Origin: Acetofilamentum sp.
GTDB taxonomy: Bacteria > Hydrothermota > 32-111
Direction: 5' to 3'
Assembly: GCA_020721805.1 (NCBI GenBank)
Contig: DYMB01000005.1
Span: forward strand, 1-64,000
Length of the DNA stretch: 64,000 nt
Positions 27,985 through 29,473 of this stretch are shown one piece after another (within the stretch, counting starts at the first letter, position 1; every line of letters begins with the position of its first letter). A model generated the notes under the pieces. The model worked only from the letters and a program-made list of their open reading frames with translations, was not told where the DNA came from and did not search any database. A program made the translations under genes and the position numbers.

Positions 27985-28197
27985 TTACATTTCAGATTGT
28001 TTTTCCTCAGTACCAAAATGACAATAGAGTTTGAATTTAAATTGATTAAGTTTATGAAATGAGCATTTCTCACAGAGACACTTTGTTGAATCAACTTCCA
28101 GAGGAGAATCGATAAATTGCCTGCAAAAAAAATTTGTCTTCAGATCGGTTTTGTAATTTGAACATTTAAAACATAAACAATTATTTTTTTTGTTCAT
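27985..28197 (-). CDS. Cysteine-rich small protein (DUF2769-like)
   Basis: 70 residues with eight cysteines grouped as CLCFKC, FFC, KCLCEKC and YC. The arrangement resembles DUF2769 and probably binds a metal. A ribosome site AAGGGGA precedes the ATG, and a TTGTTT/TATAAT pair lies at 28212-28240. Likely cotranscribed with the TPR gene. Confidence 0.6.
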   Translation of the reverse strand: MNKKNNCLCFKCSNYKTDLKTNFFCRQFIDSPLEVDSTKCLCEKCSFHKLNQFKFKLYCHFGTEEKQSEM

Positions 28198-28253: not shown

Positions 28254-28281
28254 TTGAAAAATTTTTATTTTGTGTTATAAA
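28254..28281 (+). promoter_or_regulatory. Promoter of the Lys/Ala/Pro mini-gene
   Basis: TTGAAA (28254-28259), 16-bp spacer, TATAAA (28276-28281), leader of about 27 nt with TTGGAGGG before the ATG at 28315. Confidence 0.65.
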
Positions 28282-28314
28282 CTTTTATAGGAAACCTTTA
28301 ACATTGGAGGGACA

Positions 28315-28383
28315 ATGCCAGCAAAGAAAACCGCAAAGAAACCAGCAAAAAAGACAGCAAAGAAACCAGCAAAAAAGAAGTAA
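28315..28383 (+). CDS. 22-residue Lys/Ala/Pro peptide resembling a histone H1 tail
   Basis: The frame reads MPAKKTAKKPAKKTAKKPAK plus KK, then TAA. It consists of two and a half copies of PAKKTAKK. Lysine makes up half of the residues. Such PAKK/TAKK repeats are known from the tails of histone H1-like proteins and bacterial Hc1/HctB or HU-tail proteins that bind DNA; here the tail stands alone. The gene has its own promoter, a strong GGAGGG ribosome site and a perfect terminator, which together argue that it is expressed and not an accident. Alternatively the RNA itself is the product. Confidence 0.65.
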   Translation: MPAKKTAKKPAKKTAKKPAKKK

Positions 28384-28398
28384 GCAGCGGGAAAGAGT

Positions 28399-28428
28399 AG
28401 AGCCGGTCAACTGACCGGCTCTTTTTTT
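28399..28428 (+). terminator. Strong intrinsic terminator after the mini-gene
   Basis: AGAGCCGGTCA (28399-28409) and TGACCGGCTCT (28412-28422) are perfect complements, followed by seven T. It ends the 22-codon transcript before the next gene's ribosome site at 28432, isolating the unit. Confidence 0.93.
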
Positions 28429-28444
28429 ATCAGGAGGGAAGATG

Positions 28445-29473
28445 ATGGAAACAGTTATTCTTTACAGGAAAAAAAATTTGGAAAGATTTTTTGGAAAAGG
28501 TTCAACAGTTAAGATTCAAGATTTTTTTGTCTCCTTTAAAAAAAATGATACTCTTTTTGTAGATGTTGAGGAAGGAAAAGAAAAAAAAGTAAAAGAATAT
28601 ATTTTTAAAGAGTTGAAAAATTCGATACTGATAATTGTTGGGAATGATAACCTTTTTCCATTTCACAGAATAAAATCACCAATAGATGATGGTGACGATA
28701 TTATCTTAACAGATAATTTTTTTATTTGCACCGACAGAGATCTACTATTCCCAGAAGTTGAGATAACAAGGATTCCAAACAGTATGGATGATGATTTGAA
28801 AAGTTTTATAAAAAAACTTGAAAATATTTTTTCAACAGAGAAAATAAATATCAACGAAAAGAACGGTATTACAGCCCAGATATGGGAGAAAGCATCCTTT
28901 GATGTGTTTGATGATATTTCAGGACAGGGTGATATGTTGATCTCTCCACCTTTTGATATAAACCAAAAATATGATTTTGAAAATTTTTCTGGTTCTTTCT
29001 ATTTTAATCTTCACGGAAACGATAAACTTCCGGGCTGGTATGGCCAGAGATCAAAAAATTCAAATTATAGAGAAGAGTATCCTCTCGCTATTTTACCAAA
29101 GAGTTTTAAAAAAGGGATAAAGAATTCGTTTTGTTTTTCAGAGGCTTGTTTTGGAGGATATGTTCTTAATAAAAAAGAAAAAGATTCCATCGTTCTAACA
29201 GCTTTAAAACGATCTTTTATTTTTTGTGTGGCTTCCACAGCCACAGCCTATGGACCACTGTTCCCACCATCGAGTGAAGCGGATCTGCTTGCTAGATTAT
29301 TTTTTGAAAATATAAAAAAAGGGAAAAGAGCATCACTTTCCGTAATTAACGCCAAAAAAAAATTTATCGAATATAACTTAAAAAAGAATGGTTTTCTTGA
29401 CGATGATGACAAAAAAACTATCATAGAATTCACTCTCTATGGGAATCCTTTAGTGGAGGTTTCATATGGATAA
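28445..29473 (+). CDS. Intracellular C25-like (clan CD) cysteine peptidase
   Basis: About 342 residues, with no signal peptide. Motifs follow those of the secreted C25 enzyme at 45509 in order: ILIIVGNDNLFPFHRI (LLLGGDRAIIPVRRL there), LLFPEVEITRIP (LVPEVIVGRI), the catalytic-His strand YFNLHGND (His190) and the catalytic-Cys strand FCFSEACFGGY (Cys235), then FTLYGNPLVEV (LNYFGDPEISI). It should be a caspase/gingipain-like protease acting in the cytoplasm. A second ATG at 28445 has a better distance (7 nt) from GGAGG than the one at 28442. It overlaps a small unknown gene by 8 bp. Confidence 0.65.
   Translation: METVILYRKKNLERFFGKGSTVKIQDFFVSFKKNDTLFVDVEEGKEKKVKEYIFKELKNSILIIVGNDNLFPFHRIKSPIDDGDDIILTDNFFICTDRDLLFPEVEITRIPNSMDDDLKSFIKKLENIFSTEKININEKNGITAQIWEKASFDVFDDISGQGDMLISPPFDINQKYDFENFSGSFYFNLHGNDKLPGWYGQRSKNSNYREEYPLAILPKSFKKGIKNSFCFSEACFGGYVLNKKEKDSIVLTALKRSFIFCVASTATAYGPLFPPSSEADLLARLFFENIKKGKRASLSVINAKKKFIEYNLKKNGFLDDDDKKTIIEFTLYGNPLVEVSYG

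Follow-up and report, generated by a model that had tools for sequence, protein, structure and literature searches.

The closest described systems are the bacterial H1-like lysine-rich proteins. In chlamydial Hc2 (HctB) the repeats consist of arginine and lysine, mainly with alanine and also with valine, threonine and proline; the protein measures 165-237 aa, is made of pentamers arranged in 36-aa units, and varies in size by in-frame repeats (PMC2848022). AlgP of Pseudomonas, a protein of 352 aa, joins a helical N-terminal domain to an H1-like Lys/Ala/Pro tail. Peptides with the KPAA repeats of this tail bind DNA in vitro, and AlgP associates with polyphosphate granules, the spacing of which needs the tail (PMC9239181). 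In actinobacterial topoisomerase I, H1-like lysine repeats stabilise the enzyme-DNA complex (PMC7398561).

At positions 28254-28429 of the window, which is the whole 64,000-nucleotide stretch of DNA that was analysed, such a tail is encoded on its own, as a peptide of 22 aa (MPAKKTAKKPAKKTAKKPAKKK) built of 4-residue [PT]AKK units. The C-terminal tail of eukaryotic linker histone H1 is similar in composition and disorder and carries AKK/PAKK motifs, but H1 also has a globular winged-helix domain, which the peptide does not. The traits of H1-like sequences are all found, that is, richness in Lys, Ala, Pro and Thr, repeats, and the absence of acidic residues and of a folded domain; judged by its primary structure, the peptide is a miniature free-standing variant of the bacterial H1-like lysine-rich proteins. 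The sequence-only reading had called it a tail of the H1/Hc1 type. Composition and the missing folded domain agree with this, but the likeness is one of resemblance and not of membership, since no family match was obtained: the Hc1 and Hc2 families proper gave no profile match in Pfam or NCBIfam. The peptide shares with Hc2 and Bordetella BpH1 basic repeats, which in those proteins combine Lys/Arg with Ala, Thr, Val and Pro (PMC2848022), but its length and short units do not fit the 36-aa elements of the much longer Hc2. AlgP and PhaF resemble it in their disordered H1-like C-terminal domain; both require a helical N-terminal domain followed by a KPAA tail, whereas the peptide is nothing but tail, with a lysine density roughly double that of the AlgP tail. 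The lysine repeats of topoisomerase I are an extension of an enzyme, whereas the window peptide is a free gene product. Cationic antimicrobial peptides and type I toxins would have a hydrophobic or amphipathic stretch or a signal or transmembrane segment; the peptide does not fit them, as no large hydrophobic residue follows Met1.

Organization of the peptide gene

The unit lies on the forward strand and is compact, with an RNA of about 140 nt. A sigma-70-like promoter at 28254-28281 consists of a -35 box TTGAAA (28254-28259), a 16-nt spacer and a -10 box TATAAA (28276-28281), and both boxes and their spacing are identical in the sister genome of the same genus. It is followed by a Shine-Dalgarno sequence GGAGGG at 28306-28311, for which GGAGGGACAATGCC is identical in four family members, and by the reading frame at 28315-28383 (ATG at 28315, TAA at 28381-28383, 22 codons), in which 11 of the 22 residues are lysine. 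The intrinsic terminator at 28399-28429 is a GC-rich stem-loop, AGAGCCGGTC-AACT-GACCGGCTCT (28399-28422), with a perfect 10-bp stem, a 4-nt loop and a T-run to about 28429; it folds alone. The G+C content of the window is 30%. The upstream border is marked by a divergent gene on the reverse strand (27985-28197) for a Cys-rich DUF2769 protein of 70 aa (PF10967, E 2.6e-5, above cut-off). Every element named in the sequence-only reading, from the TTGAAA/TATAAA promoter through GGAGGG and the 22 codons to the perfect GC-rich terminator, is thus present at 28254-28429. That reading had also described a unit with its own promoter and terminator; both are there, but the unit is not isolated, as its terminator is internal and the next gene starts at 28442.

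The frame is the only one of such composition in the window, and an order-2 Markov simulation of 300 sequences of 64 kb gave no equivalent, so that a low-complexity ORF arising by chance was rejected. Promoters of the TTGAAA/TATAAA type number two in the window against 0.9 expected by shuffling, and the window promoter taken alone is weak evidence.

Conservation and selection

The window lies on contig C69 of a metagenome-assembled genome (MAG) of the candidate phylum WOR-3 (G000, 1.70 Mb, 99.8% complete), which was examined by pattern search. Orthologous frames occupy the same place in three relatives: G001, the sister genome of the same genus, where the frame has 21 aa, and G003 and G004, which belong to another genus of the family and have frames of 25 aa. 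Indels among the four frames comprise whole codons, the Shine-Dalgarno sequence and start codon are conserved, and the terminator stem in G003 and G004 is preserved through compensating changes. Synonymous and non-synonymous codon differences number 4 and 3 between G000 and G001, 7 and 1 between G000 and G003, and 2 and 0 between G003 and G004. Ten disjoint pairs of close relatives, drawn from across the phylum, together show 37 synonymous and 8 non-synonymous differences, in protein-guided alignments that favour synonymous calls in gapped regions, although several pairs are gap-free. Random single-base change would give a synonymous fraction of 0.20-0.29 (P at most about 2e-13), and dN/dS for these pairs is about 0.05-0.09. 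In one pair (G127/G033) 9 of 18 codons differ, all silently.

This synonymous excess indicates selection on the peptide and not merely on its RNA. Lysine codons AAA and AAG are swapped freely between relatives, and MPAKKTAKKPAKKTAKKPAKKK contains no AAA-AAA lysine pair, as compared to 61% of the Lys-Lys pairs in long window ORFs, which we take as a sign that the sequence is translated and that slippery runs of A are avoided. A conserved frame, favoured synonymous changes and whole-codon indels are all found, and the locus is a genuine gene whose peptide product is under purifying selection. The sequence-only reading would have been refuted by loss of the frame in relatives, or by conservation of the RNA alone; both the frame and the amino acids are kept.

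A family of lysine-repeat peptides in the phylum

The search of related genomes for short AKK-repeat frames that had been proposed as a check turned out positive. A pattern of Shine-Dalgarno sequence, ATG and Lys-repeat matched 59 of 147 WOR-3 genomes, and after reading of the matches stand-alone Lys-repeat ORFs were retained in about 42 (~29%), whereas the remaining matches were due to chance or belonged to the tails of larger proteins. A weaker Shine-Dalgarno pattern (AGGA), used for missed copies, added no new positive genome among the matches listed. The peptides have 17-93 aa, mostly 17-39 with a few of 54-93, and consist of 56% Lys, 15% Ala, 10% Thr, 7% Val and 4% Pro, a make-up close to that of the Hc2 repeats and of the AlgP and H1 tails. 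A hairpin with T-run lies within 90 nt past the stop in 41 of 45 units examined, as compared to 7 of the 89 ends of long ORFs in these loci, and promoter-like -35/-10 boxes score a mean of 10.3 out of 12 against 8.4 in shuffles (sd 0.11). The N termini differ by group: MPAKK in the window family (f1) and f10; MACMKRG, MPCMKRG or MACAKK in f13, f18, f25 and f4; and MKACGAKK in f36. The tail-only members tested had no Pfam, NCBIfam or PHROGs family match; for seven of them there was no Pfam match at E up to 1 and only one, chance-level match in NCBIfam. The open-access literature yielded no paper about H1-tail micropeptides that exist on their own, and none about nucleoid proteins of WOR-3.

Bacterial histone-tail-like sequences thus exist as free peptides of 17-40 residues, below the usual limits of gene finding. 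They are under strong selection and spread through a whole candidate phylum, and make up a gene family that has been overlooked.

Several observations concern copies at other loci or in other contexts. Two contigs of one genome (the end of G051:C11, L318, and the start of G051:C13, L319) break off within a Lys-repeat coding region, so assemblies may fail at these repeats and copies may be missed. The window genus has a second Lys-tail ORF of 42 aa, MFDFVDKFFVQKIKITKGKKVTTKKAGCAKKSSPKTKKSTKK (G000:C18 from ~20316; L176 from 1501), with a 46-aa counterpart in G001 (C1, ~212466; L151). Both have an N-terminal MFDF-D--FV stretch and an AGCAKK tail and are followed by a terminator; no Pfam match was found for ORFs of this type. 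Behind the terminator comes a gene that, judging from its start, may encode a class III nucleotide cyclase. L055 (G016) and L166 (G102), of 92-93 aa, are fusions of a Lys-rich N-terminal tail with a winged helix of the HARE-HTH type (PF05066, E 2.5e-10 and 1.3e-8, respectively); by sequence this is an H1-like layout of winged helix and basic tail in a bacterium. In family f4, three proteins of 65-68 aa (L070, L072 and L074) carry the Lys-repeat tail on a desulforedoxin-like domain (PF06397, E 2e-5 for L070, the member tested).

Neighbouring genes and alternatives to a functional peptide

The gene downstream of the peptide (28442-29473, forward strand) encodes a protein of 343 aa that resembles the C25/clan-CD cysteine peptidases. 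The match to PF01364 (E 2.3e-4) falls just short of the Pfam cut-off, but the LHG and SEAC motifs are conserved in the alignment and the gene follows the Lys peptide in four family genomes (G000, G001, G003 and G004). Gingipain K cuts after lysine. The C25-like gene has its own Shine-Dalgarno sequence and starts 58 nt past the peptide stop and about 12 nt past the T-run, which leaves no room for a separate promoter, so it is apparently reached only via read-through of the terminator. Elsewhere in the phylum the neighbours are different. In f13, f4 and f18 the corresponding downstream position is held by mfd, assigned from its UvrB-interaction and CarD/RID domains, and in f25 and some f13 genera mfd lies at greater distance. 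The peptides upstream of mfd in these four families are of the Cys-bearing MACxK/MPCxK type and co-directional with it, with a hairpin in between (for example at L028, L071, L076 and L066), and this order is conserved across the four. In f10 and f36 the downstream gene is HepT-like, and f10 has a divergent gene that reads as NfeD-like.

Under two explanations the peptide itself would be without function. The compact size of the unit would suit a small RNA that is transcribed and terminated independently, the frame being incidental, and the RNA indeed folds better than shuffled sequences (z -3.05). The difference is owing to the terminator, however; the coding part is nearly unstructured, and no Rfam match was found for the unit. 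Together with the synonymous excess, the whole-codon indels and the conserved Shine-Dalgarno sequence and start, this largely refutes a small RNA, which we consider barely credible. A leader peptide, which would itself be inert but whose translation would govern how much transcription passes the terminator into the downstream gene, has the gene order in its favour: as in amino-acid attenuators, a short ORF biased to one amino acid is followed by a terminator and, within 27-63 nt, by a gene that lacks room for a promoter. This layout is found at the window unit and is conserved in f1 (with the C25-like gene) and in f13, f4 and f18 (with mfd). Such attenuation is nevertheless improbable. An antiterminator is missing, as the upstream RNA has no complement to a terminator arm longer than 4-5 nt, a length that shuffled sequences also reach, and the coding part has almost no structure. 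The amino acids are under selection while lysine codons are exchanged freely, versions of 54-93 aa exist, and similar peptides precede unrelated genes in which no theme of lysine metabolism is seen.

Possible functions of the peptide

The promoter and Shine-Dalgarno sequence appear strong and would yield much of a short, disordered polycation. The terminator directly past the stop would keep the ratio of peptide to downstream enzyme high, since the gene behind it lacks a separate promoter; both the expression level and the read-through ratio are predicted from these elements. In the cytoplasm the peptide could act as a free tail of the H1/Hc2 type that binds DNA and/or RNA non-specifically by charge, and from its composition we infer nucleic-acid binding, with Hc2, BpH1, the AlgP tail and the topoisomerase I repeats as precedents. 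Two HU genes are present in the window genome and HU was found in all 20 relatives searched, which rules out a substitute for HU and means that the peptide would add to it. An abundant polycation that binds nucleic acids alongside HU is the reading we favour, with modest confidence. The position of the peptide upstream of mfd, a DNA-repair/transcription gene, in four other families was counted in its support. If nucleic acids are bound, the peptides would be among the smallest dedicated binders. Still, the affinity of a 22-residue peptide for DNA may be low at physiological salt, and the lysine-rich composition would suit RNA, polyphosphate or anionic lipid equally well as a target. A copy was detected in only about 29% of the phylum's genomes, so that the nucleoid does not generally depend on the peptide, and since its length and exact sequence drift, charge may be all that is selected.

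A peptide that binds polyphosphate or organises granules, comparable to the C-terminal tails of AlgP and PhaF on granules, could be considered in view of the granule association of AlgP and the role of its H1-like tail in spacing (PMC9239181). The N-terminal helical domain of AlgP is absent here and no neighbouring gene points to polyphosphate or PHA, and we regard this function as quite improbable. A role as gene-encoded substitute for or supplement to polyamines deserves more attention, although it too is unlikely. Here the peptide would be a diffusible multivalent cation that neutralises the charge of RNA and DNA in ribosomes, tRNA and the nucleoid, and not a nucleoid architect. AdoMetDC is needed for spermidine synthesis, and a search of the 147 WOR-3 genomes with PF02675 revealed an anti-correlation with the peptide: both occur in 8 genomes and neither in 35, while 34 have the peptide alone and 70 AdoMetDC alone (Fisher P 1.6e-7; P 8.5e-4 at genus level). 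On an RpoB tree of 127 rows, one gene tree from which G047, G073 and G130 were left out, phi is -0.41 (P 0.002-0.003 with either trait re-simulated along the tree). For the carboxyspermidine route, no genome reached the cut-off for carboxyspermidine decarboxylase (NspC). Full-length, high-score spermidine-synthase matches go largely with AdoMetDC, and many genomes that lack AdoMetDC have just low-score relatives of 700-790 aa. In the window family, the sole member without AdoMetDC (G002) has a Lys-repeat ORF of 93 aa, which lies at another locus and replaces the version of 21-25 aa.

Other results weaken this link. Both AdoMetDC and spermidine synthase are encoded in the window genome, where the peptide can thus be at most a supplement, and the 35 genomes with neither trait do without both. 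The independent-pair test was not significant (19 pairs, few of them informative; 0.0 going the same way against 4.3 the opposite way, median p 0.125), within-family permutation gave P 0.08, and the statistics depend on one gene tree, on incomplete MAGs and on peptide calls made with a Shine-Dalgarno pattern. The broader proposal, that ribosomally made polyamine-like micropeptides replace spermidine throughout the phylum in lineages without its synthesis and supplement it elsewhere, as in that of the window, is accordingly held to be more doubtful still. We do not conclude that the polyamine link holds, but of the live hypotheses it is the most interesting one. The association with absent spermidine synthesis and the fixed adjacency to mfd in several families provide two testable routes to the function. 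Among the AdoMetDC-bearing genomes, G016, G104, G108-G111, G121 and G122 of family f10 have AdoMetDC and spermidine-synthase matches that adjoin in frames of equal length (about 330-370 aa), and these are apparent SpeD-SpeE fusions.
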